A stretch of 64,000 bases of DNA from Marinifilum caeruleilacunae. GTDB taxonomy: Bacteria > Bacteroidota > Bacteroidia > Bacteroidales > Marinifilaceae. The notes beneath the pieces were generated by a model. The model did not search any database and was not told the DNA's origin. It worked only from the letters and a program-made list of their open reading frames with translations. Position 1 is the first letter of the stretch. The number at the start of each line of letters is the position of its first letter. Below are positions 13,464 through 63,132 of this stretch, piece by piece. The DNA lies in assembly GCF_013141825.1 (NCBI RefSeq), contig NZ_RZNH01000036.1, positions 1-64,000 of the forward strand, written 5' to 3'. The position numbers and the translations under genes are program-made.

Positions 13464-13491
13464 AAAGACCGAACCTAAAGGCCCGATCTTT
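13464..13491 (-). terminator. Intrinsic terminator of the large T9SS protein gene
   Basis: On the minus strand AAAGATCGGGCC pairs over 12 positions (three G-U) with GGTTCGGTCTTT around TTTA, then runs into T residues. It lies 13 bp after the stop of the 5.7-kb gene. Confidence 0.8.
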
Positions 13492-13503
13492 TATTCTGGT
13501 AAT

Positions 13504-46154: not shown

Positions 46155-49100
46155 TTAGTCTTTTTTAAAACCAATTACAGCATTGGAAACTGCTCTTGGT
46201 TGTGGAGGCAAAGAGAAAATATTTCGCTCGTAATTTGCATTGTAAGGCGATATATTCAAGGTTTCGCCCTGAACCACCAATGTTGAACTTCCTCCTGGAT
46301 CAAATCCCATTGCTTTTTCGATATTGTATTGCTCTAAAATACCAGCCATATCGAAATGGGTTGCTCCTACCGATTCGCGAATTCTTCCATTAATGGTCAG
46401 CACATAAAGATCTCCTTCCCGATCTATTCCTACCGCAATTTTTGGTCCTCTCATATCTGTAAAATCCAATCGGGCTGCCTGTGTTTGAATCGAATTTTCT
46501 TTTTTCCATCCTTCAATATGCATGTCTAAACACTGCTTTCCCTGGCTTAATAACATTGGACCCGCTTCAACCGCATGTAAAACATTTTCCAAACCCTTTA
46601 CAGTGATATTTATCTGATCACCAAGCTTTGCTATAGGATCTTTCATCAACCCTTTAGGAATACATAGCGTCAATCCTACAGGAATTTGTTTCACTTCTTC
46701 AGCATCACATATTATCTCTTTTACCGTATTTCCAGCCAATCGGTACACAATACAATCTTTGGCCGGAATCATCTCTTTTTCGTACATCAAATCGAAATAA
46801 GAACATTCCGATGAATCGAATGAGTTGTATGCATTAGCTTCAAACTCAAGTTTTGTATTTCCACTTTCAATTATTAATCCTTGCTTACAATTCACCCTTT
46901 TAATATCCAAAGAACCATTCTTGTGAACCAACAAAGCAGGTTTATTAAAAAGAGGTGTACTCAGGCATTTTCCATTTGAAATTAACAAACCCAATGGAGA
47001 GCCTATGTACGATTCCGGTAAGCCCAATTTTCCAACCAATTCCGGATTTAGGATGTAACCACCATTCCAGGCAATTTTCGCTTTACAATTGTTCTTACTT
47101 TCAAACTCGGCTACAAAATTGGTTACTGTTTGGGTTTGTAAAGAACTTACTGCAGTAAATTCCCAATTCTTCAAATCGGCCTTAATGTTTGCCTTAGCTA
47201 AAATCCCATTCCATGGATATCCATCATCATAAATACCGGTTACATTAGAATATTCTACTTCAGATTTTGCTTCAGCCGATTTAGAAATATTTTCCAAAAC
47301 CAATTGCAATGGCGAAGCTTTTTCCTGAGCATCTTCTTTAATTAATTCCAGAAGTTTTTGCTCACCAAGTTCTGCACTTAATTTTTGAAACAAATCAGAA
47401 TGTAAAAGTTCAGAAAAATCTTTTGCAGTTTGTATTGGAGTTGGGTAAGCCAATGTGGTACGCACTCCGGCAGGTACAAACTGTATGTATCCTGTATTGT
47501 TCGGAATTCCCATAATATTTGCCGCCAGCTCTGTGGTTACTTTTCCAATATGAAACCTGTCGATATTTAAAATATCGGTCATAAAAGCAGCATTTCTTCT
47601 GTTGGAAATCAGGTAACCTTTTTTATCCATTACTTTGCGCAAAACCTTTATGGCCTTCTCTCCCATTTGTGGAATATGAATTCCTACTGTTAACGATTCA
47701 ATCGAGATAATCTGTAGAATCTTTTTATCGTACAGCAGTTTTAATTCCTGATCGGATCCGTTTTCAATAAATTCACGAATGTCCGAAGCCGTTGTCCAGT
47801 TGGTTAAAGCTTCTTCAGGAGCAAATACATACACATTCTCAATCTTTAATTTTGAAAGTTTCTCTTCATCAATCGGGTCGAACATGTCCATATTCAACCT
47901 GTTCTTAATCGAATTTAGAATAAAATACTCCAGTTCATACTTCACATATTTACCCGGAAAATAAGCCAATGGGATATTCTGTTTCATTTTTTGAAACAAA
48001 AAATCCCTGTCATCAATTGATATTACCGATGAAGAAGTGAGTTGAGAAAGTGCCAGATTTTTATCCAGGAAGAAACGTGAAGAACCACTAATTCTTCTTC
48101 CTATGCCCGGAGGCAAGTGTTTCGATTTTACGAGATTTACCATTCCCGATAATTCCTGATGTGTAAACTCATGAAATGGGTAATGGTTTTTATTTCTATG
48201 TCGATAAGTAAATGAATGGTCGTGTCTGATTTGAATTTCGCCATTTCTAACATTGAACAAATTATCAATTGAATTGTAGAATTGATGAATCTGCTCCAAA
48301 CTTAAATTTTCCGCTTCAGGATGATCTTCCACCTGCTTTCTGGCAAAGTAAAAAGCACCGCCTCTTATTTCCTGTTCTTCCATTCTAAAGGAACTCGGAT
48401 CGATTAAAGATTTCAGGTAAAGCATGAATCCAAGCCTGCCATATCCCGGAAGGTAATGCCTGTTTTCGGTATTTAACAGGGCTTTTACATCATTATTTAT
48501 AAAATTCACCTTCTTTTGGTAAACTTTATAATATTCCTTTACCTCTTGCAAACTCTCTTGGTTCGATTGCAACTGAAGGTATAATTTTTTTACAATATCG
48601 TTTATGCTCGAATTCAGCGAAGAAATACTATACCTGTTATTGATCACTTTCTTATTGTGACTTACACTGCGGTGATGAATATGTGGAAAAAATACCTTTT
48701 CGATTACCTCGTTAACATGCGAATCTCTAATGCTTCTGCCTGTAAATTCTATCACTTTAAGCCGCTCTTTCTCGGGCAAATGCTCACCAATTACCTCGGC
48801 ATATACATTTTCGGGTTGGTACCTTCTGCAAAAAATTGGAACACCTGCAGCAGCGGCTTCTAAAATTGGTAAACCTCTTCCCTCGGTTTTCGATGGCAAT
48901 AATATCAGCGAAGAAATACTGTACAAATCAGGAATTCCCAATGGGTTTTTAAAATGATTTTTAAACCTGTCTTTATCCATCTCGCTAAATAAAAAACCAA
49001 GATAAATTCGATTTCTAAATTCCATTTCTATTTCTTCCAAAAGTTCCTGGAAACGCTTTAGTAACTTCTGAAAATAGGGATATTGTCCCAATGGAATCGG

Positions 49101-50315
49101 ACCAGTAATCAGGATGGTAATTTTTAAATCATCCGATTCTCTGATTTTCTCTTTTAAACTATCTACCTGCAACATTTTTGATAGCAAATCAAATCCCAAT
49201 TCTATTCTTTTGCGTGATATTACGCGAGTTGGTTGCAGAAAAATGATATTTTCAGACAAAAACTTGTGCATCGCCTTTGTCTTGTACCCAATGTAAATAG
49301 GTTCCGGGTTCTTGCGACTTACCAGCTTGTATTCAATTACATCTTTTACCGAGTAACTGATCAATGCATCTTTGTGGTATCTACTCAACATTTTCTCCAT
49401 CTGGTACATCGATTCAATCCTTCTCCTTTTGTTGATGTCATCATATTCCGACATGTCAACAGCAGTTCCTATTTCGGTTACATTGGCCGGATTGTGTCCT
49501 TTAGAATGAATCAAATGATCGCTTTGCTTTTGATTGATATTTACATTCATCCACGAACGCGATTCCCAGGGAAACAAAACTTCGAGCTGAGAGAAAAATT
49601 CTCCCAAATGTGAGTTTAGAAAGAAGAAATCGCGAGGACCTTTCTTTAATCCTTTTACCTCTTTCGTGATTTCAGAATTGCCACCTTCCCAATAAAAATC
49701 GTGATTGTTATTGATAACAGGAATTCCCATAAATTCTGAAACCAAAACTGTAGCCAATGCAGCAGAAACATTACCAGGGTTAGAGCAGAGGTTAATCAGG
49801 TAAAGCAATCCAATATCATTCTTCTCGATATACTGCCCTAATTTTTGGCAAATGCTTAATGTTTGCTCCCAAAACTTTACAATTAAAGCATTGTATTCTT
49901 TGCTTCCCCGTTCAAGTTTGGTAAAAAAGAAATCTTTGTATAAATCCCAATCATCAAAAGCTTGCATTTCTTCAATGGTACAAGTTTTGGTTCCCGGGTT
50001 CATAATTTTCGAAGCTTCGGGGTAAAACTTTCCGGCGATGTAATGAACAGGTGTATCTTTTCCTAAACTATTTCGAAAGGTTTTCGCGTATTTTTCCACC
50101 TCAATACTAACTCCATCAATCGAGAAATAGAATGTAATAAATGCAATTCCTTTTTTATTGATATCGGCTTTAAAATTTTCGAAGGACTTGTTGAACTCTA
50201 CAACCGGAATGGATTTGTTTTCTTTAAATCGATCTATAAACAGGCCCAAGTCGAACCAGGTGTTTATTTTTTCACTGCGCAAAACATCCATCATTTCAGT
50301 TGTCGTCATCTTCAT
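46155..50315 (-). CDS. Fusion protein: glycosyltransferase plus phosphodiester glycosidase domain
   Basis: A 1386-residue protein without a signal peptide. Residues about 30-590 look like a GT-B family 4 glycosyltransferase: an N-terminal Rossmann half (GLLYLINLCSNPGNVSAAL, PVINNNHDFYWEGG) and a C-terminal half with the E-x7-E donor site (LLPSKTEGRGLPILEAAAAG). A middle region (about 590-1060) has no family I recognise. Residues about 1080-1386 match the phosphodiester glycosidase (NAGPA) fold: IAWNGGYI, KIAVGIDREGDLYVLTINGR, GATHFDMAGIL, MGFDPGGSSTLVV. Transfer and removal of a sugar on one chain is unusual. Single gene; the substrate is unknown. Confidence 0.78.
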   Translation of the reverse strand: MKMTTTEMMDVLRSEKINTWFDLGLFIDRFKENKSIPVVEFNKSFENFKADINKKGIAFITFYFSIDGVSIEVEKYAKTFRNSLGKDTPVHYIAGKFYPEASKIMNPGTKTCTIEEMQAFDDWDLYKDFFFTKLERGSKEYNALIVKFWEQTLSICQKLGQYIEKNDIGLLYLINLCSNPGNVSAALATVLVSEFMGIPVINNNHDFYWEGGNSEITKEVKGLKKGPRDFFFLNSHLGEFFSQLEVLFPWESRSWMNVNINQKQSDHLIHSKGHNPANVTEIGTAVDMSEYDDINKRRRIESMYQMEKMLSRYHKDALISYSVKDVIEYKLVSRKNPEPIYIGYKTKAMHKFLSENIIFLQPTRVISRKRIELGFDLLSKMLQVDSLKEKIRESDDLKITILITGPIPLGQYPYFQKLLKRFQELLEEIEMEFRNRIYLGFLFSEMDKDRFKNHFKNPLGIPDLYSISSLILLPSKTEGRGLPILEAAAAGVPIFCRRYQPENVYAEVIGEHLPEKERLKVIEFTGRSIRDSHVNEVIEKVFFPHIHHRSVSHNKKVINNRYSISSLNSSINDIVKKLYLQLQSNQESLQEVKEYYKVYQKKVNFINNDVKALLNTENRHYLPGYGRLGFMLYLKSLIDPSSFRMEEQEIRGGAFYFARKQVEDHPEAENLSLEQIHQFYNSIDNLFNVRNGEIQIRHDHSFTYRHRNKNHYPFHEFTHQELSGMVNLVKSKHLPPGIGRRISGSSRFFLDKNLALSQLTSSSVISIDDRDFLFQKMKQNIPLAYFPGKYVKYELEYFILNSIKNRLNMDMFDPIDEEKLSKLKIENVYVFAPEEALTNWTTASDIREFIENGSDQELKLLYDKKILQIISIESLTVGIHIPQMGEKAIKVLRKVMDKKGYLISNRRNAAFMTDILNIDRFHIGKVTTELAANIMGIPNNTGYIQFVPAGVRTTLAYPTPIQTAKDFSELLHSDLFQKLSAELGEQKLLELIKEDAQEKASPLQLVLENISKSAEAKSEVEYSNVTGIYDDGYPWNGILAKANIKADLKNWEFTAVSSLQTQTVTNFVAEFESKNNCKAKIAWNGGYILNPELVGKLGLPESYIGSPLGLLISNGKCLSTPLFNKPALLVHKNGSLDIKRVNCKQGLIIESGNTKLEFEANAYNSFDSSECSYFDLMYEKEMIPAKDCIVYRLAGNTVKEIICDAEEVKQIPVGLTLCIPKGLMKDPIAKLGDQINITVKGLENVLHAVEAGPMLLSQGKQCLDMHIEGWKKENSIQTQAARLDFTDMRGPKIAVGIDREGDLYVLTINGRIRESVGATHFDMAGILEQYNIEKAMGFDPGGSSTLVVQGETLNISPYNANYERNIFSLPPQPRAVSNAVIGFKKD

Positions 50316-53140: not shown

Positions 53141-54163
53141 ATGGATGATCACCTGGACATAAGAAGTCATAACTTTTCCGATAAGGAAAAAGAGTTTGAT
53201 AACAAATTGCGTCCTCTGCAATTCTCCGATTTTAGGGGACAAAAGAAAATTGTAGAGAACCTTAGTATTTTTGTGGCTGCAGCAAAAATGAGAGAGGAAG
53301 CACTGGATCATGTCTTGCTTCACGGACCTCCCGGTTTGGGGAAGACGACCTTATCGAATATTCTTGCCAATGAATTGGGAGTTGGACTAAAAGTTACTTC
53401 GGGTCCTGTTTTGGATAAACCTGGCGACCTTGCCGGTTTACTAACCAATCTGGAACCAAATGACGTTCTTTTTATCGATGAAATACATCGTTTAAGTCCC
53501 ATTGTTGAAGAGTATTTGTATTCCGCAATGGAAGACTTTAAAATCGATATCATGATTGATAAAGGTCCGGCAGCAAGATCGATTCAATTGGAATTAAATC
53601 CATTTACATTAATTGGTGCAACTACCCGATCGGGTTTGTTAACTTCTCCATTACGTGCCAGGTTTGGAATCAATTGTCATTTGGAATATTACGATTTACC
53701 AGTACTTACAAAAATTGTAGAACGTAGTGCCGGCATTTTAGATGTTGAAATTACACATGAAGCTGCTGGCGAAATTGCATCCAGAAGCAGGGGAACACCA
53801 AGAATCGTAAATGCACTTTTGCGAAGAGTAAGAGATTTTGCTCAGGTAAAAGGAAATGGATCCATCGATATTGATATCACCAAATTTTCGCTTGAAGCTT
53901 TAAATATCGATAAGCATGGTTTAGATGAAATGGACAACAGAATACTAAATACCGTAATTGATAAATTTAATGGCGGACCGGTTGGGATTTCTACCATTGC
54001 AACAGCTGTGGGAGAAGATAGCGGAACCATCGAGGAAGTCTACGAACCATTTTTAATTAAAGAAGGTTTTATCAAGAGAACTCCACGCGGTAGAGAGGTA
54101 ACTCCATTGGCTTATTCTCACCTTGGGAAAAACAGGTTTAACGATCCCGAATTACTATTTTAA
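53141..54163 (+). CDS. ruvB: Holliday junction branch-migration ATPase RuvB
   Basis: A 340-residue AAA+ motor that drives branch migration with RuvA. The Walker A motif is [12 protein letters not shown], Walker B is [10 protein letters not shown] and sensor 1 is LIGATTRSG with the arginine finger in SPLRARFG. The C-terminal winged helix contains [17 protein letters not shown]. Length is normal. A small membrane protein gene follows after 11 bp. Confidence 0.97.
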
Positions 54164-54174
54164 TTGTTGATTGA

Positions 54175-54504
54175 ATGAAAAGATTTTTATCGATTCTTTA
54201 TACACTTGCAACTGTATTGATTATTGTAGGTGCACTTTTTATTTTGCAATCGGAAAGTTATGGTATTGCAATGTTAACATCCGGATTGGGTTTAAATATC
54301 CTTTACAGAGTTTTCACTTTAAATGTTCAAAACCTAAAGGAATTTAAATTGCCAGATATATTTAAAGTAATCGGAATTCTGATTATGATTTTTGCCTGTA
54401 TTTTAATTTTTACCAATTCGGAGCAAAAATTTAATATGATGATACTGGCAGTAGTTCTGGATGTGATTATTAACTACAAAGAAATTTCGTTGAAGACAAA
54501 ATAG
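54175..54504 (+). CDS. Small four-segment membrane protein of unknown function
   Basis: A 109-residue protein with four predicted membrane segments (about 5-25, 29-47, 62-80 and 86-100) and a basic tail (EISLKTK). No family recognised. It starts 11 bp after ruvB and ends just before a terminator, so it is probably the second gene of a ruvB operon. Confidence 0.65.
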   Translation: MKRFLSILYTLATVLIIVGALFILQSESYGIAMLTSGLGLNILYRVFTLNVQNLKEFKLPDIFKVIGILIMIFACILIFTNSEQKFNMMILAVVLDVIINYKEISLKTK

Positions 54505-54505
54505 C

Positions 54506-54536
54506 AAAAGGAGCTTGTGACCAGCAAGCTCCTTTT
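54506..54536. terminator. Bidirectional intrinsic terminator
   Basis: AAAAGGAGCTTG pairs with CAAGCTCCTTTT around a 7-base loop. It separates the ruvB operon (+) from the peptide/histidine-kinase unit (-). Confidence 0.88.
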
Positions 54537-54555
54537 AACATCCCTAGTAATTTTC

Positions 54556-55419
54556 CTAAATAGCAATATTCTTTCGAGTATTAGACGAAGAATATATTTC
54601 GTTAATATTTTGTTTCAATATAGCTTCAATTTTTTCTTTCAATACTACATTTGATTCTGAGAATTTGAAAGGAATGGTAAAGTAAAATATGGATCCATCT
54701 CCTAAACTTGAATCAATGTAGAGTTTACCACCAAGAAATTCTACAATTTCTTTGCTGATGCTAAGGCCTAAACCTGCACCAGAGTGTTCTCTTGTGTATG
54801 AGTTATCCACCTGGGTAAACTTTTTAAATATTTTTGCCTGTTCCTGATCACTAATGCCCGGACCTGTATCTTTTACATAGAAAAGAATATTGTGTCGGTC
54901 TTGAATGGCACAACCAAAATCGATTTCACCGGCATTGGTAAATTTGATTGCATTATCCAGCAAATAAGATAAAACTTTGTTCAGTTTTTTGTGATCGGTA
55001 AATATTTTGTTCTCACGCAAATCTTCGGTATAGTTTAAAACTAAGTTTTTACCGCTCATACTAATTTTTTGCGTGTATGCCGAATACAAATTAATCAGTA
55101 AATCATGAACTTCAATTTCCGATTCGTTGTATTCCAGAGCACCGCTTTCCAATTGCGATAGCTCAAGGATCCTGTTAAAGAGATCCAGTAATTCTTTACT
55201 GCTCGATGTCAGTATTTTTGTAAATTCATTCCGATCCTGTTTCGATAAGGAATCATCACGGAGAAGTTCTGATGCCCCTACAATCGCGTTCATCGGCGTT
55301 CGAATTTCATGCGACATATTTGCCAGGAATGCATCTTTCAGCTTTTCGGTCTCTTTAAGCTGAGCACGTGCCTCCTCCAACTGTCGTTGCAATTCTTTAT
55401 ATGTAGGACGTTTCTCCAT
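54556..55419 (-). CDS. Sensorless soluble histidine kinase downstream of the GG-peptide array
   Basis: A 287-residue kinase. After a short N-terminal coiled coil (about 6-30, YKELQRQLEEARAQLKETEK) the HisKA helix begins at once, with His37 in FLANMSHEIRTPMNAIVG. The HATPase domain has an N box (LSYLLDNAIKFT), G1 (VKDTGPGISDQEQ) and G2 (GAGLGLSISKEIVEF). There is no membrane segment, PAS or receiver, so its input must come from a partner protein. It lies 116 bp after the last of five GG-leader peptide genes on the same strand, with no clear terminator between, so co-transcription is plausible. Confidence 0.87.
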   Translation of the reverse strand: MEKRPTYKELQRQLEEARAQLKETEKLKDAFLANMSHEIRTPMNAIVGASELLRDDSLSKQDRNEFTKILTSSSKELLDLFNRILELSQLESGALEYNESEIEVHDLLINLYSAYTQKISMSGKNLVLNYTEDLRENKIFTDHKKLNKVLSYLLDNAIKFTNAGEIDFGCAIQDRHNILFYVKDTGPGISDQEQAKIFKKFTQVDNSYTREHSGAGLGLSISKEIVEFLGGKLYIDSSLGDGSIFYFTIPFKFSESNVVLKEKIEAILKQNINEIYSSSNTRKNIAI

Positions 55420-55535
55420 TAATATGAATTTGACATTAATTTTTTTTTACACTTTTTGACCTAAGCCTACACTACAAGGCTCAATCAAATACATCTTAAA
55501 AAGATGCAATTATGAAAATATGGTATGGGAATTTG

Positions 55536-55628
55536 TTAGACTAAGATGTCTTCATCTATTGTTTTGTCCTGGTAACCACCAAGAACCTGGTCTAACTCTT
55601 GAGTTGTTAATTTTTCAAAGGTGTTCAT
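55536..55628 (-). CDS. GG-leader peptide, diverged copy
   Basis: A 30-residue peptide. The leader NTFEKLTTQELDQVLGG ends in Gly-Gly with hydrophobic residues at the positions typical of double-glycine leaders (Leu-12, Leu-7, Val-4). The core is YQDKTIDEDILV. Compared with the four neighbouring copies the leader has changed at most positions, yet 10 of 12 core residues are the same (Met to Tyr, Ser to Thr). This points to selection on the core. It is the last peptide gene before the histidine kinase. Confidence 0.75.
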   Translation of the reverse strand: MNTFEKLTTQELDQVLGGYQDKTIDEDILV

Positions 55629-55688
55629 TGTGAATAGGATAAGAGACTAGTAAATATAAAAATTACTATCTACTTATTCAAATTTTTC

Positions 55689-55781
55689 TTAAACCAGGAT
55701 ATCTTCATCGATTGATTTATCCTGCATTCCACCTTTAATGTTTTTTAAATCTTCTGTGTTTAATACTTCGAAATTTTTCAT
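55689..55781 (-). CDS. GG-leader peptide, repeat copy 4 (closest to the diverged copy)
   Basis: A 30-residue peptide: leader KNFEVLNTEDLKNIKGG after the initiator Met, then core MQDKSIDEDILV. The protein is identical to the next three copies; the only coding difference is one synonymous Leu codon (CTG instead of CTA). The leader fits the ComC/bacteriocin double-glycine pattern (Leu-12, Glu-Asp-Leu, Ile-4, Gly-Gly). The core is acidic with no Cys, so a disulfide or lanthionine bacteriocin is unlikely. Confidence 0.75.
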   Translation of the reverse strand: MKNFEVLNTEDLKNIKGGMQDKSIDEDILV

Positions 55782-55856
55782 TGCTATTTTAATTTGGTCG
55801 TTAATAACTAGGAAAATACTTTTTTGGAAAATTTGGATTACTTGGGTCGAGGTCGG

Positions 55857-55949
55857 TTAAACTAGGATATCTTCATCGATTGATTTATCCTGCATTCCAC
55901 CTTTAATGTTTTTTAAATCTTCTGTGTTTAATACTTCGAAATTTTTCAT
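55857..55949 (-). CDS. GG-leader peptide, repeat copy 3
   Basis: Encodes the same 30-residue peptide as the copies at 55689, 56025 and 56190 (leader ending IKGG, core MQDKSIDEDILV). It has its own start and stop and a conserved upstream spacer, so each unit is an independent gene rather than part of a polyprotein. Confidence 0.75.
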   Translation of the reverse strand: MKNFEVLNTEDLKNIKGGMQDKSIDEDILV

Positions 55950-56024
55950 TGCTATTGTTATTTGGTCGTTAATAACTAGGAAAATACTTTTTGGAAAATT
56001 TGGATTACTATGGGTCGAGGATGG

Positions 56025-56117
56025 TTAAACTAGGATATCTTCATCGATTGATTTATCCTGCATTCCACCTTTAATGTTTTTTAAATCTTCTGTGTTTAAT
56101 ACTTCGAAATTTTTCAT
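56025..56117 (-). CDS. GG-leader peptide, repeat copy 2
   Basis: Encodes the same 30-residue peptide as its neighbours. The spacer in front of it is slightly shorter (AGCAATG leader without the extra TA). No promoter of the TAnnTTTG type is visible in the spacer, so transcription probably reads through from the ECF-type promoter at 56327-56359. Confidence 0.75.
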   Translation of the reverse strand: MKNFEVLNTEDLKNIKGGMQDKSIDEDILV

Positions 56118-56189
56118 TGCTTAATTTGGTCGTTAATACTTAGGAAAATACTTTTTTGGAAAATTTGGATTACTATGGGTCGAGGATGG

Positions 56190-56282
56190 TTAAACTAGGA
56201 TATCTTCATCGATTGATTTATCCTGCATTCCACCTTTAATGTTTTTTAAATCTTCTGTGTTTAATACTTCGAAATTTTTCAT
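56190..56282 (-). CDS. GG-leader peptide, repeat copy 1 (promoter-proximal)
   Basis: First peptide gene of the array, encoding the identical 30-residue product. Its ATG lies 45 bp after the -10 part of the bipartite promoter AGGGTTACC-N14-GGAATAAAGG, which is shared with the ECF sigma gene. Expression of the whole array is therefore expected to depend on that sigma factor (inference). Confidence 0.77.
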   Translation of the reverse strand: MKNFEVLNTEDLKNIKGGMQDKSIDEDILV

Positions 56283-56326
56283 TGCTATTGGGTCGTTTTT
56301 TTAGTTTTTAAGGAAACAATTACACC

Positions 56327-56359
56327 CCTTTATTCCGGTTTTTAGAAAAAGGTAACCCT
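56327..56359 (-). promoter_or_regulatory. ECF-type promoter of the GG-peptide array
   Basis: On the minus strand AGGGTTACC, a 14-base spacer, then GGAATAAAGG. The two halves and the spacer length are identical to the site in front of the sigma gene at 61139-61171. Both are preceded by a similar A/T tract containing TTTTTTTCAC on the minus strand. Confidence 0.75.
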
Positions 56360-56476
56360 GCGATTGAAAGTTTTTTTAAAAAAAAGTGAAAAAAACTGCA
56401 TATATTTAAATCCTTTTAGGAAACACTGCGTATATAAAGCATTGTTTCTAAGAAGATTAAGAAAAACTACTTGAGC

Positions 56477-59308
56477 GTGAAAAAAAATCTAAAAAAAGTT
56501 CTGCTTTTCTCTCTTTTACTTGTTTTGCTCTCTGGCGAAAACAAGAATTTGGCACTTTCCTCCATTCTTACTGAAGATCAAAAGGTTGAAAACCTTAAAC
56601 CTGATTCTGTACTGGTTAATCAATTTAATCGTGCCTTGGAATTTTTCAGGGCTCGGGAATTTCAATATGCGGTTCAATCATTCGAAAATGCAGTTGGAAC
56701 CATCGAAAATGGTGGGGTTAGCGATAAGAATATGATTTATCGTACCTATGTCAATTTTGGTGTGATTAAAAAACAATTGGGAAAAAGAGCTGATGCATTG
56801 AAGTATTTTAACATGGCAGAGCTTTATACCATTGACAATTATGGTATTGAATCTGCTAAGTTGGTACCTATTTATGTTAATACAGGGAATATTTATAATG
56901 AAATTTTAGATTTATTTAAGGCTCAAAGTTATTATGAAAAAGCCTTGTCACTAATTGGTGATGGTCATTCACGCTACCTTTCGCATATAAATAATAACCT
57001 TGGTAACAATTATTATAACAGAAAAGAATTTAAAGTTGCCTTGAATTATTATATGAAATCATTGTCAGTTAAGAAAGAGACTAATGATAGAAACATATTT
57101 AAAACTTTAAATGGAATTGCGAACTGCTATAAGAACCTGGGTAATTTTAAAGAAGCGGATTCTTATTATTTGCAAAGTATAGATATAATAAAATCACAGG
57201 GAGACGAAAATCATTATAACCTTGGGCATCTTTATCTCAACTATGGAATCTTTCAATATAAAGTAAAGAATACGGACAATGTTTTAAAGTATTTACAATT
57301 GGCCCGTGATATTTATGAAAGTAATTTCGGTCCTAAACATCCTGATGTTGCAATCTGCTTAATGAATATTGGTGAATTTTACGGTGATCAGGACCAAAAT
57401 CTGACTTCGCTTAATTTTTATCAAAAAGCAATCATTTCTGAATTGGATAATTTTGTTGATTCTACCATTTATACCAATCCTACTATAGAGAATATAGAAC
57501 CACAAATAGTTATTCTAAGTATCTTAAAAGGGAAGGCTAACGTATTTAGCCAATTGTACGAAGAGAAAAAACAAGTTAATGATCTGGAGTTCAGTCTTGA
57601 AACCTACGATTTATGCTTCGATATTATCGATAAAATTCGAATTGGTTATCAGGATGAAGAGAGCAAATTGGCCTTGTCGAGTAACGAAAAAGATACCTAT
57701 ACCAAAGCCATTGGAATTGCTGTAAAGCTCTACGAAATTACCAAAGATCCGATTTACAAAGAGAAAGCATTTAAATATGCCGAGCGCTCAAAAGCTGCCA
57801 GTTTGATGTCTTCTTTGAATGATGTGAATGCCAGGAATGTTGGTGGGTTACCGGTTGAATTACAGGAAGAAGAATTGCAATTGCGTAAGGATATTGCCAG
57901 TTTCCGTGAAAAGGTTTATGAAGAAAGAAAGAACATCCAGCCAAACCGTGAGAAGATTGCAGAATGGCAGGGGAAGTTGTTCGAATTGAACGAAAAGTAT
58001 GACCAAATGGTGCTTCGATTCGAAGAGGATTACCCGAAGTACTATGAACTGAAATATAAAAATGCAACCATAGAAATATCAGACCTCCAGTCCAAATTAG
58101 ATGCTGGAGAAACACTGCTGGAGTACTCCATTTCGGATTCCACTTTGTTTACTTTTATTTTAACAAGAGATTCTTTTGAGGTTACAAAGAAGGATTTCGA
58201 TGTAGATAGTTTGAATCATCATATCGAAGAGGTGAGAAATTGTTTGAAGACAAATGATTTTGCCGAAAACAGTGCGGACTATTACAAGAACTACACTAAT
58301 TCAGCCTACGAATTGTATCAAACTTTTGTAGCACCACACGAAAAAGCAATTGCAAATAAGAAATTAATTGTGGTGCCTGATGGAAAAATGGCATACGTTC
58401 CTTTTGGAGTATTGATCAAAGATAAAGCGGATCCAAATCGAATGAATTATCGTGATTTGAATTATCTAATTAAATCACATACAGTAACTTATCACAATTC
58501 GGCAACCATTGGTTTTACCATTGAATCGGCTGGCTTTAGTTTCACAACCAGTAAATCTGTTTTGGCATTTGCACCATCTTATAAAGGAATTGACGATTCT
58601 ATTTTATATACCGAAAGAGCGTACAGAGACAAGTTGTATCCACTGCCATATACAAAGGAAGAGGTAAATAATATCAATAATGTTATGGAAGGTGATTTGT
58701 ACCTGGATGATTTGGCCACAGAACAAAACTTTAAAAATCACGCAAGTGATTACGATGTGCTCCACCTGGCCATGCACACCATTATTGATGATGAGAACCC
58801 AATGTACTCGAAACTGGTTTTTACACAAACTGAAGACAGCATACAAGATGGTTTATTGAATACGCATGAAATTTATAACATGAATTTTAATGCAAGAATG
58901 GTTGTCTTAAGTGCTTGTAATACAGGAGATGGTAAGTTGCAGAAAGGGGAAGGGGTAATGAGTTTGGCTCGTGGTTTCTTCTATGCCGGTTGTCCTAGTA
59001 TTATCATGACTTTATGGACAGTAGAAGATCAGACAGGTTCGAACTTAATGACCAATTTCTATTCATACTTATCGCAAGGATTGAAGAAGGATGAAGCATT
59101 GCGCCAGGCCAAATTGAAGTATCTTGAAACTGCAGATCCATTAAAATCTCACCCTTATTTTTGGTCGGGATATGTTACCATGGGTGATGTTGAACCACTT
59201 TACGATTTAGATTTGAACAACAAGCTTGTATGTATGGGATTGGGTGGATTGTTCATTATTCTATTGTTCGTATTCAGAAAGAGAATGGTAAGACGAAAAG
59301 TAGCATAA
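56477..59308 (+). CDS. Membrane-anchored TPR-CHAT caspase-like protease
   Basis: About 943 residues. No ATG is available: the start is a GTG (56477) or a TTG two codons earlier (56471). A signal peptide (KKVLLFSLLLVLLSG) is followed by tetratricopeptide repeats (about 40-350), a helical linker/coiled coil (about 400-540) and a C-terminal CHAT domain (about 610-905). The dyad is visible: His769 in VLHLAMHTIIDDE and Cys816 in VVLSACNTGDG (numbering from the TTG), then GEGVMSLARGFFYAG. A final membrane segment and basic tail (GGLFIILLFVFRKRMVRRK) put the protease in the periplasm. It is divergent from the GG-peptide genes, which are candidate substrates or regulators. Confidence 0.88.
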   Translation: MKKNLKKVLLFSLLLVLLSGENKNLALSSILTEDQKVENLKPDSVLVNQFNRALEFFRAREFQYAVQSFENAVGTIENGGVSDKNMIYRTYVNFGVIKKQLGKRADALKYFNMAELYTIDNYGIESAKLVPIYVNTGNIYNEILDLFKAQSYYEKALSLIGDGHSRYLSHINNNLGNNYYNRKEFKVALNYYMKSLSVKKETNDRNIFKTLNGIANCYKNLGNFKEADSYYLQSIDIIKSQGDENHYNLGHLYLNYGIFQYKVKNTDNVLKYLQLARDIYESNFGPKHPDVAICLMNIGEFYGDQDQNLTSLNFYQKAIISELDNFVDSTIYTNPTIENIEPQIVILSILKGKANVFSQLYEEKKQVNDLEFSLETYDLCFDIIDKIRIGYQDEESKLALSSNEKDTYTKAIGIAVKLYEITKDPIYKEKAFKYAERSKAASLMSSLNDVNARNVGGLPVELQEEELQLRKDIASFREKVYEERKNIQPNREKIAEWQGKLFELNEKYDQMVLRFEEDYPKYYELKYKNATIEISDLQSKLDAGETLLEYSISDSTLFTFILTRDSFEVTKKDFDVDSLNHHIEEVRNCLKTNDFAENSADYYKNYTNSAYELYQTFVAPHEKAIANKKLIVVPDGKMAYVPFGVLIKDKADPNRMNYRDLNYLIKSHTVTYHNSATIGFTIESAGFSFTTSKSVLAFAPSYKGIDDSILYTERAYRDKLYPLPYTKEEVNNINNVMEGDLYLDDLATEQNFKNHASDYDVLHLAMHTIIDDENPMYSKLVFTQTEDSIQDGLLNTHEIYNMNFNARMVVLSACNTGDGKLQKGEGVMSLARGFFYAGCPSIIMTLWTVEDQTGSNLMTNFYSYLSQGLKKDEALRQAKLKYLETADPLKSHPYFWSGYVTMGDVEPLYDLDLNNKLVCMGLGGLFIILLFVFRKRMVRRKVA

Positions 59309-59330
59309 ATTATCAAGTAAAAGATATAGG

Positions 59331-59362
59331 AAAAGGCTAAAGCGCAAGTTTTAGCCTTTTTT
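59331..59362 (+). terminator. Intrinsic terminator of the CHAT protease gene
   Basis: AAAAGGCTAAA pairs with TTTAGCCTTTT around a short loop and continues with T residues. Confidence 0.88.
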
Positions 59363-59587
59363 ACTGTTCGCAATTCTGTCCTAACTTCCGAGAATCTTTA
59401 CAAAAGGAACAATCATCCAATTTTAACTTTCTAAAATAAATAATCGAGCACAAGTAAGAAGCTTATAGTTTGTTAGAGAATAAGCAGGTTTTACAGTAGT
59501 ATCCAATCGATATATTATTGATCTTTTTAACGTATTTGAATAGATTCTAACGATTCATATCTACACTTCCAATAAAGTGTAGTTTTT
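59362..59587 (+). ncRNA. Possible small RNA ending at an orphan terminator
   Basis: There is no open reading frame between the CHAT terminator and the minus-strand TPR gene, yet a second rightward terminator stands at 59561-59587. A terminator without a gene can mark a small RNA. I see no convincing promoter, so this is only a candidate. Confidence 0.25.
59561..59587 (+). terminator. Orphan intrinsic terminator
   Basis: CTACACTT pairs perfectly with AAGTGTAG around a 6-base loop, followed by five T. It lies about 250 bp after the CHAT stop and is not needed by any visible gene. Confidence 0.7.
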
Positions 59588-59754
59588 AGCGCTAAAACCT
59601 GCCTTTTAAGCTCTTTTAAATTAAGAAAGATGTTATGGGATAGAAATCTGAAAAATCTGCCGGAAAGGCCTAATAATAGAAGTCATTGGACGATCATGCC
59701 GGTCAAGAAATCAGAGCAAAAGTGCCGATATGGATTTATAAGCTTGAGTTCCTG

Positions 59755-59791
59755 CAAAAAAGGAAAGCCGCTCAATTGAATTGAACGGCTT
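59755..59791 (-). terminator. Intrinsic terminator of the sigma / TPR operon
   Basis: On the minus strand AAGCCG and a following TCAAT/ATTGA stem pair with CGGCTT, then a TTTTTT tract. It lies 29 bp after the TPR gene. Confidence 0.8.
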
Positions 59792-59819
59792 CATATATGT
59801 GTTGATGAATGAGTGTAAT

Positions 59820-60572
59820 CTATTCCAGTTTATTAAGAATTTCCTGTGCTTTCGCTTTGTAGAAACTATTTCCTCTGGCAATGGTGTTGAACTGCTCAAT
59901 GGCCTTTTCTCTTTCGTTGGTCATTAAGTAGCAGAAACCCAAATACCATTCAGATTGCTCTATAAACAGGTTATTCTTATGACGGATAACTTTGGTAAAG
60001 TTTTTATTCGCTTTATGATATTCGCTGATTTCCAGGTTGGAAATACCCGAATAAAAGTTACTCGTAATGTTAGTGCTGTCCTTATCTAATATTTGCTTAA
60101 ACAAATGAAGGGCAGTGCGATAATCCTTAGCTTCGTAGCTCTTAAGGGCGTTTACCAGCATATTGTCTATGTTGGCATCAGCCGAACGAGTATTCACTAC
60201 GATTTCATAAGGCTTATAATAGTTGCTGTATACCTTCTCGTTAGAGTAAGTGCCTTTGTTATTCACCAGGAACATTAAACTACCCAGCCCAATAAACAGA
60301 GCTAATGATGCAGCAACAATATTCCACTTGGTTAAATATTTAAATTTGCGCTTCTCCTCTTCTTTCGGAGGTATTTCAATCGCCTCTAGCTTGCTTCTAA
60401 GGTCCATAATATCATTTTCCATTATGGCCTCGTCAACCTCTTGGTGTAAATCCAGCTCCATCTGTAAATCTGGATCATCAAGGAGGTCCTTCTCAAATTC
60501 CTTTAGTTGATCGTCAGACAATCCACCATCAAGGAAATCCTCAATTCGGTCAAAATTCATTTCACTCATCAT
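59820..60572 (-). CDS. Membrane TPR protein, probable anti-sigma factor
   Basis: About 250 residues. The cytoplasmic N-terminal part (DRIEDFLDGGLSDDQLKEFE, then DPDLQMELDLHQEVDEAI) resembles the sigma-binding region of Bacteroidota anti-sigma factors. A membrane segment follows (WNIVAASLALFIGLGSLMFLV), then a periplasmic region of TPR-like helices (YRTALHLFKQILDKDSTNIT, KAIEQFNTIARGN). The start is probably the ATG at 60572 or 60569 (ATGATGAGTGA overlap with the sigma stop at 60562), which implies translational coupling; an in-frame ATG also exists at 60596. It would hold the ECF sigma factor at the membrane and release it on a periplasmic signal. Confidence 0.75.
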   Translation of the reverse strand: MMSEMNFDRIEDFLDGGLSDDQLKEFEKDLLDDPDLQMELDLHQEVDEAIMENDIMDLRSKLEAIEIPPKEEEKRKFKYLTKWNIVAASLALFIGLGSLMFLVNNKGTYSNEKVYSNYYKPYEIVVNTRSADANIDNMLVNALKSYEAKDYRTALHLFKQILDKDSTNITSNFYSGISNLEISEYHKANKNFTKVIRHKNNLFIEQSEWYLGFCYLMTNEREKAIEQFNTIARGNSFYKAKAQEILNKLE

Positions 60573-61128
60573 ATACTTCTTTAAATTCATTATCACTTTT
60601 GATACTATCTATCAGCATTTGTTTACACTGATATTTCCTTTTCTTTGCATACTTCTCGCTCTTGTAGCCCATAATTTCGGCAATTTCTTTAAGCGAGATT
60701 TTGTCTAGAGCAAGTTGAAGAACCTTTTTACAATCCGGACCAAGATTTTGGAAATGTTTCTGATAAAGTCGATACCTCTCAGTTTGGTCAAAAGTTTCAG
60801 AAGCTTCGTCTAATCTGTTATCCAGGACTCCTTCCGAATTGATTTCATTACTGTTCTTTTTCTTCTCAAGTTGCTTTAACCACAAAAGTTTGCAAATGGA
60901 ATAGATGTATGTTTTAAAGTTACAACTAAGAACCAATGGTTCTTTTTTCATTTTACGATAGATTACAATAATAGCCTCTTGGAAAAGATCGCGTGCGTCT
61001 TCCTCGTTCCCATTATTGTTCTCGATAAAATTGCGAATACTCGGAAAGAACTTTTTGTAGATGTAGTTTAATACATCATTGTTGCTCATACTGATTCCCT
61101 CAAGTATCGCTTCGGTAGTGTAATCCAT
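60562..61128 (-). CDS. ECF-type RNA polymerase sigma factor
   Basis: A 188-residue sigma-70 family protein. Region 2 covers about 25-95 (EEDARDLFQEAIIVIYRKM, TYIYSICKLLWLKQL), and region 4 with its helix-turn-helix is at about 125-175 (KKVLQLALDKISLKEIAEIM, GYKSEKYAKKRKYQCKQML). It has no regions 1 or 3. The gene overlaps the TPR/anti-sigma gene. Its own promoter region carries AGGGTTACC-N14-GGAATAAAGG ending just before the ATG, and the same element precedes the GG-peptide array, indicating autoregulation and control of the peptides. Confidence 0.9.
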   Translation of the reverse strand: MDYTTEAILEGISMSNNDVLNYIYKKFFPSIRNFIENNNGNEEDARDLFQEAIIVIYRKMKKEPLVLSCNFKTYIYSICKLLWLKQLEKKKNSNEINSEGVLDNRLDEASETFDQTERYRLYQKHFQNLGPDCKKVLQLALDKISLKEIAEIMGYKSEKYAKKRKYQCKQMLIDSIKSDNEFKEVYDE

Positions 61129-61138
61129 ATTTTCTATC

Positions 61139-61171
61139 CCTTTATTCCCTTTATGGCCAAAAGGTAACCCT
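61139..61171 (-). promoter_or_regulatory. ECF-type promoter of the sigma factor gene
   Basis: On the minus strand AGGGTTACC, 14 bases, then GGAATAAAGG, ending 10 bp before the sigma ATG. It is identical in both halves and spacing to the promoter of the GG-peptide array. The rest of the gap 61172-61493 is very AT-rich and shows no gene. Confidence 0.75.
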
Positions 61172-61493
61172 CAAAAAGTGAAAAAAATTTAAAAAAATAT
61201 TAAACTTCCACATAAGTGGCTGAAAATGAATAAAATAAAAATGAAATTTTTTTTGAAAAAAATCTGTTTTTTTTGATTTATTATCATAAACCAAAGCAAT
61301 ATACTATTATTATTGGTATTAGGTTACTGTAAACGGCTATTTTTTTGTGACGAATCACTAAAAATATGATGTAAGTGTAAGCTTTTGTAGGAATAGTGTG
61401 GCGTAAAGAATAAAAACTATTATTAGTGCACTGTACAAAGCACAAATTTTATGTGGAAGGATTTTTACTCTTCCAGGCAGATACAAAGGGTAC

Positions 61494-61530
61494 AAAAAAA
61501 AATCGATCCTCGTATGAGAATCGATTTTTT
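61494..61530 (-). terminator. Terminator of the tRNA-Val pair
   Basis: AATCGAT pairs with ATCGATT, with an inner CTC/GAG stem around GTAT, flanked by seven A on the left and six T on the right. Read leftwards it directly follows the tRNA genes. Confidence 0.8.
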
Positions 61531-61531
61531 G

Positions 61532-61606
61532 TGGGCGATATAAGATTCGAACTTATGACCCCTTGGGTGTAAACCAAGTGCTCTGAACCAACTGAGCTAA
61601 TCGCCC
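61532..61606 (-). tRNA. tRNA-Val (anticodon TAC), downstream copy
   Basis: A complete cloverleaf of 75 bases on the minus strand. The acceptor stem is GGGCGAT / ATCGCCC, the D arm is GCTC-GAGC, the anticodon arm CTTGG-TTTACAC-CCAAG gives anticodon TAC, and the T arm is ATAAG-TTCGAAT-CTTAT. The discriminator is A and CCA is not encoded. It differs from its neighbour by a compensated base pair in the T stem. Confidence 0.95.
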
Positions 61607-61633
61607 TTGTTATTGGGAAATTTTGCTTTTTTG

Positions 61634-61708
61634 TGGGCGATATAGGATTCGAACCTATGACCCCTTGGGTGTAAACCAAGTGCTCTGAACCAACTGAGCT
61701 AATCGCCC
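61634..61708 (-). tRNA. tRNA-Val (anticodon TAC), upstream copy
   Basis: The same cloverleaf as the downstream copy, with T stem ATAGG / CCTAT instead of ATAAG / CTTAT. The two genes are 27 bp apart and almost certainly co-transcribed leftwards. Confidence 0.95.
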
Positions 61709-61849
61709 TTGCCCTTAAAAGCGATGCAAATATAAGTTGGAATATTCTTATCTGCAAGAATAATTTTTAAAAAAATGAAAAAAATATTTCCCGAGGGCCT
61801 TATTCTTCGAGGAAAGCCTTATTTTTATCAGTCGTAAAAAATTGATACT

Positions 61850-62200
61850 ATGGAGAATAATTTAGAGAGAGACTGGAATAGTCTTTTATATAAAATTTCT
61901 GAAGAATTTAATGTGGATGCCGATTTAAATGGAACTTTACTTTTAATTGGCATACAAGAACGTGGTTTGGGCTTCCAGGAAACTTATAGCAAAGAAGAAA
62001 AGTGGGATCATATCGATTTGGCCACTTGTACCCTTTTAATGAAATGGAACTATTATTCCATTGAAGGATATGATGAAGACAATTGGCCTATATTTGTAAA
62101 GAACAAAATGGTTCCTCCTTTTTCGAAAGACAAAGAAAACCAATTATTAAAATCTTCGATTGTTGAATATTTTAAAGATAACGGATATTTAAACGAATAA
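61850..62200 (+). CDS. Conserved-looking small cytoplasmic protein of unknown function
   Basis: A 116-residue soluble acidic protein with no signal peptide. Recognisable features are only compositional: LNGTLLLIGIQERGLGFQE near the middle and a Trp/Tyr-rich stretch (LLMKWNYYSIEGYDEDNWPIF). No family recognised. It starts the cluster with the two cyclophilin genes (16 bp before the first), so it may share their transcript. Confidence 0.7.
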   Translation: MENNLERDWNSLLYKISEEFNVDADLNGTLLLIGIQERGLGFQETYSKEEKWDHIDLATCTLLMKWNYYSIEGYDEDNWPIFVKNKMVPPFSKDKENQLLKSSIVEYFKDNGYLNE

Positions 62201-62216
62201 CAGCAAAGCTATACAA

Positions 62217-63029
62217 ATGAAAAAACTACTTTACCTGGCAATTTTACTAAGTCTTGTATCCTGCCAAGAAAAATTAGAATTGGGAAAGAAAAACCGAATT
62301 GTTGAAATCGAAACAGAATATGGTGACATTAAAATCAAACTATATGATGAAACACCATTGCACCGCGATAATTTTGTAAAACTGGCCCATGGCGATTATT
62401 TTGATGGTACATTATTTCATAGAGTGATAGATGGCTTTATGATTCAGGGCGGAGATCCTGATTCAAAAGCTGCTAAACCTGGAGTACGTTTGGGTGAAGG
62501 TGGACCAGGTTATAAAATTGATGCAGAATTTAATCCGAAATTAATTCACAAACGTGGTGTAATTGCTGCTGCACGCGAAGGAGATGATGTAAATCCTGAA
62601 AAGAAATCGGCAGGATCGCAGTTCTACCTGGCGCAAGGTGTTGTATACACTCCCGGTGGACTGGATACTTTATTAATCAAATTGAATGATCGTGTAAAGA
62701 ACAGGATATTTGAAAAAGTACAGAAAGAGAATGCAGAGGAGATGATGAAATATCAGGCCGAAGGAGAGATGGAAAAGGTGAGCGAAATCATCGACCAGAT
62801 TCAATTGAAGGTTGATTCTATTTTTGAAACTCAAAAAATCAGCTTTGCACAGAACCAAATTGATGCCTATACCACAGTGGGTGGTATTCCGCATTTGGAT
62901 GGTAACTATACTGTTTTTGGCGAGGTAATTGAAGGGATTGAATTTATCGATAGCATTGCCAAGCGCGAAAGAGATGAATATGATCGACCATTGGAAGATG
63001 TTTCCATGAAAGTGAAGATCCTTCAATAG
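62217..63029 (+). CDS. Cyclophilin-type peptidyl-prolyl isomerase lipoprotein
   Basis: A 270-residue protein with a lipoprotein signal (LLSLVSC). The cyclophilin domain is split: the first part includes YDETPLHRDNFVKLAHGDYF and FHRVIDGFMIQGGDP with the catalytic Arg and Phe, and the second includes YTTVGGIPHLDGNYTVFGEV. A helical, charged insertion of about 75 residues (about 145-215, KNRIFEKVQKENAEEMMKYQ) sits between. It should act on proline bonds of periplasmic or outer-membrane proteins. A paralogue follows after a terminator. Confidence 0.9.
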   Translation: MKKLLYLAILLSLVSCQEKLELGKKNRIVEIETEYGDIKIKLYDETPLHRDNFVKLAHGDYFDGTLFHRVIDGFMIQGGDPDSKAAKPGVRLGEGGPGYKIDAEFNPKLIHKRGVIAAAREGDDVNPEKKSAGSQFYLAQGVVYTPGGLDTLLIKLNDRVKNRIFEKVQKENAEEMMKYQAEGEMEKVSEIIDQIQLKVDSIFETQKISFAQNQIDAYTTVGGIPHLDGNYTVFGEVIEGIEFIDSIAKRERDEYDRPLEDVSMKVKILQ

Positions 63030-63047
63030 ATCAGAAAATATGGATTC

Positions 63048-63079
63048 AAAAGCTTCGGAAATTATTTCGGAGCTTTTTT
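63048..63079 (+). terminator. Intrinsic terminator between the two cyclophilin genes
   Basis: AAAAGCTTCGGAA pairs with TTTCGGAGCTTTT (two G-U) around ATTA and runs into seven T. Confidence 0.85.
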
Positions 63080-63132
63080 TGTGATGCATATCAATGATAT
63101 TTATATTAGATCAGTTTTTTAAAAGAGTCACG

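Follow-up and report, generated by a model that had tools for sequence, protein, structure and literature searches.

The window, meaning the whole 64,000-nucleotide stretch of DNA that was analysed, covers bases 1-64000 of one contig of a 5.27 Mb genome whose nearest named relatives are Marinifilum, Labilibaculum and Ancylomarina. Between 55536 and 56282 it carries five minus-strand genes of 30 codons, all encoding peptides with a double-glycine (GG) leader (Table 1). The preliminary description listed four of these as identical in protein and the fifth as diverged, and all five are present as described. The four identical peptides, here referred to as type A, consist of the leader MKNFEVLNTEDLKNIKGG followed by the core MQDKSIDEDILV, and the diverged one, type B, consists of the leader MNTFEKLTTQELDQVLGG followed by the core YQDKTIDEDILV. 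The two types are identical at 8 of the 18 leader positions and at 10 of the 12 core positions. Tandem Repeats Finder reports the type A copies as a repeat with a unit of 168 bp, 3.6 copies and a score of 1113. Start to start, the A copies are 165-168 bp apart, and type B lies 153 bp further on.

Table 1. Features of the peptide array and its surroundings in the window.
Feature	Coordinates	Strand	Basis
Histidine kinase, 287 aa, directly downstream of the type B peptide	54556..55419	-	HisKA + HATPase_c
GG peptide type B, leader diverged, core same; last before the kinase	55536..55628	-	ORF list, family profile, A/B comparison
GG peptide type A copy 4	55689..55781	-	ORF list, repeat and family profile
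GG peptide type A copy 3	55857..55949	-	ORF list, repeat and family profile
GG peptide type A copy 2	56025..56117	-	ORF list, repeat and family profile
GG peptide type A copy 1, promoter-proximal	56190..56282	-	ORF list, repeat and family profile
Bipartite promoter-like element GGGTTACCTTTTTCTAAAAACCGGAATAAAGGGGTGTAA, upstream of the array	56320..56358	-	20-locus alignment, window and genome scans
TPR-CHAT protease, 945 aa, divergent from the array	56471..59308	+	Pfam CHAT 7.9e-60
F04, single-TM protein with C-terminal TPRs, putative anti-sigma factor	59820..60596	-	Sub-cut-off TPR matches, TM, gene overlap
ECF sigma factor, 188 aa	60562..61128	-	TIGR02937 8.3e-18
Element, first 33 positions, upstream of the ECF sigma gene; ends 9 nt before the annotated ATG	61138..61170	-	Scans

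The array is not a chance run of short reading frames, because a family peptide profile searched against the source genome recovers type A at E 1.4e-15 and type B at E 8.2e-12, and because a search with the same profile finds full-length relatives in 22 of 57 genomes of the family. Both types score above the cut-off of TIGR01847 (15.7 bits), with 19.3 bits for type A and 17.3 for type B. For the ComC model PF03047 (cut-off 20.4), type A is above at 21.5 and type B below at 19.6. Judged by eye, both leaders match the C39 leader pattern (Leu-12, Glu/Asp-8, Leu-7, Ile/Val-4, GG) given in the available portion of PMC6363468. The core is small and acidic, with a net charge of -3. Rfam at gathering thresholds over 54000-62500 returned two tRNAs only, with no structured RNA in the array spacers, and neither sigma-70-type promoters (2, versus 5.5 in shuffles) nor terminators (0) in 55300-56500 were above shuffles.

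The array is flanked by genes for a histidine kinase and a TPR-CHAT protein. The kinase gene is co-directional with the array, and its product has no transmembrane (TM) segment by hydropathy. The CHAT domain (PF12770) of the protein on the other side scores 203.2 bits against a cut-off of 24. Its His765 and Cys816 are invariant in an alignment of 14 of 14 proteins, and by their motif we take them to be the CHAT catalytic dyad. A hydrophobic, signal-peptide-like 11-mer is found at the N-terminus of all 14 in-family CHAT proteins examined (that of the window protein falls below the 19-residue TM threshold by hydropathy), and a C-terminal TM segment was predicted in all six tested. Given the hydrophobic N-terminus, the C-terminal TM segment and the invariant His and Cys, the TPR-CHAT part should lie outside the inner membrane. 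Phmmer with the CHAT domain against solved structures returned nothing at E 1, and among the matches listed for a whole-protein profile (60 of 75), those shown were TPR proteins. The CHAT protein was also considered as a part of a known phage-defence system and rejected as such, as PADLOC gave a generic TPR match only; for the kinase it gave one candidate model.

Beyond the CHAT gene, and convergent with it, are the overlapping genes for F04 and for an ECF sigma factor (TIGR02937, 64.6 bits, cut-off 42.9). F04 has a TM segment at residues 93-111 by hydropathy and TPR matches below cut-off, and one TM segment near residue 90 is found in seven of the eight F04-type proteins tested. Judging from the sequence, this layout, with one TM segment near residue 90 and TPRs after it, is that of a putative membrane anti-sigma factor. 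The N-terminus of F04 matched none of the known anti-sigma families in Pfam and NCBIfam, and the AlphaFold model, with a mean pLDDT of 43.7, was too poor for use. Class II bacteriocins have a cationic or amphiphilic core and an immunity gene. This assignment was rejected for the array, in view of the charge of the core and of neighbours, kinase and CHAT, among which no immunity-gene candidate was seen.

The family profile was built from 32 distinct peptides collected with a pattern that required GG, leaving out a solo peptide with the same leader (L031), and across these 32 peptides the C-terminal Val, M1 and F4 are invariant. Within the core, only the last Val is invariant across relatives. 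The core hydroxyl position of the window peptides is S, T, C, M, I, D or P in relatives, and many relatives carry one to three core Cys residues; the initial picture of a core with no Cys and one hydroxyl residue holds for the source genome and not for the family as a whole. At least two peptide copies are present in 20 of the 22 peptide genomes, and in the other two (G005 and G040) the peptides are at contig edges. A 23rd genome, the outgroup G015, has leader-level matches only, with two diverged peptides beside its CHAT gene.

The array lies between the TPR-CHAT gene and the histidine kinase gene in all 15 loci that have both flanks on the examined stretch. Genus g17 is included in these 15 loci, though there the genes past the kinase differ. 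Across the 54 of 57 family genomes covered by the CHAT, kinase and element counts (G054-G056 left out), a CHAT orthologue is found in 23 and a kinase orthologue in 21, the latter missing, relative to CHAT, from G015 and from G040 (contig edge). In G034, a one-contig genome, the CHAT and F04 frames are both interrupted and the peptides are intact. It may be that the peptides are used there without CHAT and F04, which counts against CHAT being necessary, or that the interruptions are assembly errors.

We compared leaders and cores between the two peptide types, as assigned by a custom pattern, in 20 tabulated genomes, 12 of which have both types and eight of which have no type B. Within a genome, the leaders of A and B are 48% identical and the cores 87% identical, whereas between genomes type A leaders are 81% identical and cores 54%. 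The preliminary description saw a leader that changes around a core that is kept, the reverse of typical bacteriocin families; this is the case for A/B paralogues inside a genome, but across species the leader is the conserved part. The 87% identity of same-genome A and B cores compares with 72% when they are re-paired among genomes of equal core length (p 5e-5, 12 genomes; 0 of 20,000 shuffles better, in a permutation that ignores phylogeny). Same-genome A and B core codons show synonymous differences at 2-8 of 12 codons, which argues for selection on one shared core and not for recent copying or gene conversion. Judged by these comparisons, the core is species-specific yet near-uniform inside one cell, as expected for a ligand with one partner.

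When the stretch between CHAT and the peptide genes is aligned for 20 loci, it shows a sole conserved block, composed of GGGTTACYTTT, a variable stretch and AATAAAGGGGTGTAA, with the remainder diverging. The consensus of this element is GGGTTACYTTT-N12-GAATNAAGGG, and the spacer is 12 bases in every copy examined. In the window, GGGTTACCTTTT occurs without mismatch exactly twice, before the array and before the sigma gene, and the second half of the element is equally spaced at both sites. A search of the 54 family genomes for GGGTTACYTTT-N6..16-GAATNAAGGG found it in 23, which are exactly the carriers of a CHAT orthologue, and in none of the other 31, and the reversed-pattern control over the 54 genomes gave no matches. 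The peptide promoters of the outgroup G015 have only a variant (GGGTAACC, with shorter spacing), and the exact element occurs elsewhere in that genome. If the element is a promoter, transcripts would start just after GAATAAAGGGG at both sites. It could also be the binding site of another regulator rather than a promoter, and before the sigma gene it stops only 9 nt short of the annotated ATG.

In relatives the element precedes further genes, whose HTH, HlyD and lipoprotein labels were given by reading unless Pfam-scanned. At eight loci, one of them Pfam-scanned, it stands before a C25 (gingipain-family) protease gene with a T9SS tail. It precedes two GG peptides in L216 and one in L210. In L212 and L215 it is followed by a small Cys-rich ORF accompanied by ThiF and YcaO genes, and in L179 by a stretch comprising a small HTH-like gene together with HlyD-like and PCAT (C39) genes. 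Small HTH-like genes after the element lead GG-peptide or Cys-rich-ORF stretches in relatives, and the element is also found before proteins whose starts resemble lipoprotein signals. In the source genome a third site, on another contig, precedes a 230-aa protein with such a lipoprotein-signal-like start.

The absence of a C39/PCAT exporter from the window, noted in the preliminary description, is borne out by a whole-genome PF03412 search, which gave three matches, all on other contigs. Two are of exporter size and the third is smaller, and one was confirmed to have ABC domains. A C39 peptidase was detected at E 1e-10 in all 22 peptide genomes versus 13 of 35 other family genomes. In 18 of the 22, a C39 gene is on the peptide contig, 12-46 kb away, and in G001, G016, G034 and G040 this gene is the only C39 in the genome. 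In G000, G004, G005 and G047 the C39 genes are on contigs other than the peptide contig. It is these distances in relatives, and the location on other contigs in the source genome, that explain why the window holds no exporter. After the exporter gene in relatives comes a conserved gene, often separated from it by a single small gene, and the scanned copy of this conserved gene is assigned to HlyD by Pfam. The genes before the exporter vary by genome, and in the source genome they include an S41 gene, a radical SAM gene and a GG peptide of the locus itself. At L102 (G024) the exporter is not separated by any ORF of at least 90 aa from the conserved gene that comes next, and this speaks against a modifying enzyme being obligatory.

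The domain scan of the window covered 35 of its 46 ORFs of at least 110 aa, 30 of them at E 1e-8. Among these 35 ORFs we found no Cas7-11 (gRAMP) domain and no ATP-grasp ligase, and the latter was also not found among four proteins of one C39 locus; the only radical SAM match was the housekeeping protein HemW. In the source genome, one C39 locus encodes a radical SAM/SPASM protein; it matches RiPP maturases best, but none of these matches reaches the cut-off. In graspetides an ATP-grasp ligase is encoded alongside the precursor, and the core holds donor (Ser/Thr) and acceptor (Glu/Asp) residues in conserved pairs. The peptides have no such conserved pairs, the hydroxyl position varies among the seven residues given above and no ATP-grasp was found in the scanned ORFs, and we rejected a graspetide as the main reading on these grounds. 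The preliminary description had offered a signal or protease ligand and, with less conviction, a crosslinked graspetide-like product. The first is the best supported reading, and the second finds no support in view of the variable hydroxyl position, the scanned ORFs and the exporter of L102. A radical SAM product was likewise set aside as the main reading, there being no conserved acceptor residue and no constant enzyme.

Outside the family, a CHAT protein search of 295 genomes of the order Bacteroidales, scoring at most two candidates per genome, gave matches in 120, including the source genome. In the best-match loci from other genomes (loci were taken from best matches only), a GG peptide is directly upstream of CHAT in 11 of 29. 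More regions were then included, one batch picked partly for known peptides and another by CHAT match and ORF length beforehand, and in the enlarged set a GG peptide lies at most 1.2 kb upstream of 19 of the 33 CHAT genes with usable upstream sequence; the remaining 14 have no detectable GG peptide nearby. For comparison, 18 of 143 other genes have one; in 16 of the 18 cases it is a CHAT-linked peptide already counted, met again from a neighbouring gene, which leaves 2 of 143 with an independent one. In regions chosen before the peptides were examined, a GG peptide is upstream of 8 of 17 CHAT genes. A search for such peptides beside CHAT genes in relatives, suggested in the preliminary description, has thus found GG peptides adjoining CHAT in several Bacteroidales families, an outcome in favour of that description. 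This wider distribution was revealed via the CHAT search and not the peptide profile, which across the order matched 5 of 295 genomes beyond the source genome, all at leader level and one inside a 705-aa frame.

The out-of-family peptides are mostly acidic or neutral after the GG and often Pro-rich, and none of the 19 listed has Cys in that part. The motif [IV][DE]EDIL, which may be compared with IDEDILV of the window, is found in peptides of L249, L260 and the in-family outgroup L153. The broader [IV][DE]ED[IL]L has five occurrences in the six-frame translations of 40 regions (893,931 residues), all in GG peptides beside CHAT, a descriptive count given that the motif was framed after viewing the peptides of the window, G015, L239 and L249. 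Most out-of-family cores have no DEDIL motif, and one recognition mode for all is therefore unlikely. The first half of the element, at a threshold of at least 9 of 11 positions, is present in 11 of 19 out-of-family peptide upstream regions versus 10 of 247 upstream regions of other genes. It is present in only 6 of 17 out-of-family sigma upstream regions, for which the start codons may be misplaced. In L261, L262 and L263 it precedes both peptide and sigma genes, and in L259 a different element is common to the two. A sigma-like gene is found in 22 of 41 out-of-family regions. An exporter gene is in the same region as CHAT in 8 of 41 (two of the 41 being without CHAT), and in L259 and L261 it follows the peptide directly.

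Taking together the gene anatomy, its conservation, the shared element, the association of CHAT with GG peptides and exporters, and the within-genome agreement of the cores, we tentatively propose that the five genes encode an exported peptide that is the input signal of a CHAT-protease/ECF-sigma circuit, a reading to which we give slightly less than an even chance. Guided by its GG leader, the peptide would reach a C39 (PCAT) exporter whose gene lies at another place on the chromosome, and removal of the leader by this exporter would free an acidic 12-mer with the C-terminal end [DE][DE]x[IL]V-COOH. Once beyond the inner membrane, this 12-mer would be recognised by the TPR part of the predicted secreted, membrane-anchored TPR-CHAT protease, and the activated CHAT domain would then cut or otherwise disarm the periplasmic TPR part of F04, the putative anti-sigma factor. 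The freed ECF sigma factor would transcribe its own gene and the peptide array, in a positive feedback, and would also drive secreted-protease, GG/RiPP-peptide and exporter genes. In its most complete form, the proposal would describe peptide quorum sensing in the Gram-negative Bacteroidales. An acidic peptide exported by a PCAT would activate a TPR-CHAT protease of caspase fold in the periplasm, this protease would destroy a TM-TPR anti-sigma factor, and the ECF sigma factor would induce the peptide, itself and a bacteriocin/protease regulon. Such a system would be a secreted, peptide-gated counterpart of the RNA-gated Craspase logic, found in many families of the order. We put this extended version forward as a possibility that is somewhat more likely to be wrong than right.

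The direction of the circuit could also be the opposite, with the peptides as the output of the sigma regulon, that is, as secreted effectors (a bacteriocin, a public good, or an inhibitor of competitors or of the envelope of the cell itself) encoded in many copies for dose, and with sigma, F04 and CHAT sensing something else. Identical tandem copies do suggest a need for dose, and the same element precedes RiPP-type stretches in L216, L210, L212, L215 and L179. However, those stretches differ from genome to genome, whereas the peptide is the regulon member that is kept beside CHAT across families. Moreover, the core is small and negatively charged, there is no small unassigned gene of the immunity type between the array and the kinase or CHAT, and it is the leaders of A and B that diverge and the core that is held. 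We consider an effector role unlikely.

The proposed signal might alternatively be read by the adjacent kinase, with the peptide as a pheromone sensed by this protein alone in the family and by the kinase with an F04-like TPR membrane protein elsewhere. ComC and BlpC are sensed by receptor kinases. In keeping with such a route, the kinase is directly downstream of the peptides in all 15 loci with both flanks and has an orthologue in 21 of 54 family genomes, and genes for the peptide, an F04-like protein and a kinase-like protein are in a row in L207, L257, L258, L260, L274, L277 and L280, with a LytTR gene next in the row of L207. The kinase of the window has no membrane segment, however, and in G015, where CHAT and peptides are both present, a search at E 1e-70 finds no kinase. 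In L259, L261 and L262 as well, peptide and CHAT occur with no kinase-like gene in the examined region. Sensing through the kinase is quite doubtful on this evidence.

A contact between peptide and protease could also work as a leash and not as a trigger, with the peptide serving CHAT (or the co-regulated C25 protease) as substrate or blocking it as a competitive inhibitor. The peptide gene adjoins a protease gene, the core is acidic and in relatives the element also stands before a C25 protease gene, but with the last Val as the only invariant core residue there is no constant cleavage residue, and an export leader and positive feedback from the same element would be needless; we regard a leash as very improbable. 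Equally improbable is a modified RiPP precursor (a graspetide or radical SAM product) finished by an enzyme of the exporter locus, for which the radical SAM/SPASM protein of one source-genome C39 locus and the core Cys of many relatives could speak, but that locus already includes a GG peptide of its own, gene content ahead of the exporter varies (with no ORF of at least 90 aa between exporter and next conserved gene in L102), no Ser, Thr or Cys position of the core is conserved and the window offers HemW as the sole radical SAM match among its scanned ORFs.

We return to the peptide as the trigger of the CHAT protease. Our literature searches returned nothing joining the CHAT domain with a double-glycine leader, nothing joining the CHAT domain, ECF sigma factors and Bacteroidetes, and nothing joining double-glycine, Bacteroidales, sigma factor and pheromone. 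Among the papers found on Craspase, PCAT, lanthipeptides, graspetides and anti-sigma factors, no description of the peptide/CHAT/sigma unit was seen. The parts are of known kinds and the combination appears to be new, and the unit looks like an unrecognised peptide signalling circuit. If the chain from peptide to CHAT, anti-sigma and sigma factor is true, it gives a ligand for secreted-looking TPR-CHAT proteins and explains the sigma-like genes near CHAT in out-of-family regions (22 of 41).

Pheromone peptides with GG leaders are well known in Gram-positive bacteria. As far as the available portion of PMC6363468 describes the ComC/BlpC type (PF03047, TIGR01847), the Marinifilum peptides are like it in the GG leader, the C39 exporter, a small core that varies by species, and co-regulated peptides and exporters. 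Unlike ComC/BlpC, they occur in a Gram-negative organism, as tandem copies with two leader types and one core, and the gene beside them encodes a kinase without a TM segment in place of a membrane receptor kinase; CHAT, a TM-TPR protein and an ECF sigma factor complete the unit. In a second known type, FxSxx-COOH, the gene of a TPR protein adjoins that of a short peptide whose C-terminal end is conserved, and there is a radical SAM partner. The Marinifilum unit shares with it the short peptide, the conserved C-terminal end and the adjoining TPR protein, but there is no radical SAM partner in the unit and the TPR protein is a CHAT protease. The FxSxx-COOH model NF040586 gave a TPR-level match only (28.7 bits against a cut-off of 300).

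In the DegS-RseA-sigmaE pathway, a peptide end, that of a misfolded porin, is read outside the membrane by a PDZ-trypsin protease, the membrane anti-sigma factor is cut and the ECF sigma factor is freed. The circuit proposed here would follow the same order, from an extracytoplasmic peptide end via a protease and a membrane anti-sigma factor to an ECF sigma factor, but the protease would be a CHAT protein and the peptide the product of a dedicated gene. The available text of PMC10028731 names this envelope stress pathway as well. In Craspase, according to the portions available of PMC10028731 and PMC9729208, the TPR-CHAT protein Csx29 cuts Csx30, which inhibits an ECF sigma factor, and the parts of type III-E Craspase/CASP systems are TPR-CHAT (Csx29), Csx30 and CASP-sigma (PMC10028731, PMC9729208, PMC11106740, as far as available). 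On that description, the Marinifilum unit resembles Craspase/CASP in having a TPR-CHAT protease gene near those for an ECF sigma factor and a candidate sigma inhibitor, and in putative sigma sites within its own locus that suggest positive autoregulation. It differs in that the Marinifilum CHAT protein appears to be secreted and membrane-anchored, and that the inhibitor candidate F04 has a TM segment and TPRs. No Cas7-11 was seen among the scanned window ORFs, and an exported peptide would take the place of RNA as the trigger. If true, the proposed chain would suggest that CRISPR Craspase and a general signalling module have the logic from protease to sigma factor in common.

In the one-contig genome G034 (locus L043, G034:C1:209000-228900), both the TPR-CHAT protease gene and F04, the single-TM TPR protein gene, are broken into two frames, either by co-loss or by assembly errors, and despite this all five peptides are intact. 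Genome G021, of genus g17 in the same family, carries a tandem duplication of the peptide-linked CHAT gene.

Coordinates of features in the window and in loci of related genomes
Feature	Region	Positions	Description
1386-aa protein	window	46155-50315	C-terminal phosphodiester glycosidase (NAGPA) domain
Two tRNA-Val(tac) genes	window	61531-61708	tandem, near-identical, within 102-bp repeat
Two neighbouring proteins	window	62217-63957	270 and 287 aa, alike in look
F04	L043 (G034)	5527-6302	two frames
CHAT	L043 (G034)	6525-9367	two frames
CHAT duplication	L038 (G021)	10332-16550	tandem
Two GG peptides	L028 (G003)	3037-3366	exporter locus; DxDGDGxWD cores
Solo peptide	L031 (G005)	5220-5375	core DNDKNISEDGTVIEIQ
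Solo peptide	L154 (G045)	9806-9925	core EMREGGRTVGAGQITEIIE

Elsewhere in the window, the long N-terminal part of the 1386-aa protein had no Pfam match at E 1e-8, and the 270-aa protein is a cyclophilin-type peptidyl-prolyl isomerase.

Double-glycine peptides also occur at other loci. The two solo peptides combine the leader type of the array with different cores, and no CHAT gene was seen adjoining either. One of the two peptides at the G003 exporter locus begins MKNFEVLN, the leader start of the array peptides; the cores of this pair look like a calcium loop.

In L259 (G251), the regions upstream of the peptide and sigma genes share another element, GGGGATATTTTTCA..TGCTACTAA, which gives the impression of a joint shift in promoter and sigma specificity. 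The bipartite GGGTTACYTTT element itself precedes other genes. At eight loci of related genomes (L175-L178, L218-L220, L225) it is followed by a C25-type gene encoding 982-983 aa (the L176 copy is spread over two frames); the L177 protein, the sole copy of the eight scanned, contains C25 and propeptide domains together with a T9SS tail domain. In two g17 genomes (L212 of G042, L215 of G031), ThiF-like and YcaO genes, the latter SagD-type in L215, lie ~1 kb past the promoter-like element. Between the element and these genes is a small Cys-rich ORF (MKITKLSKK...CCCSCCCSCC) that looks like a TOMM precursor.
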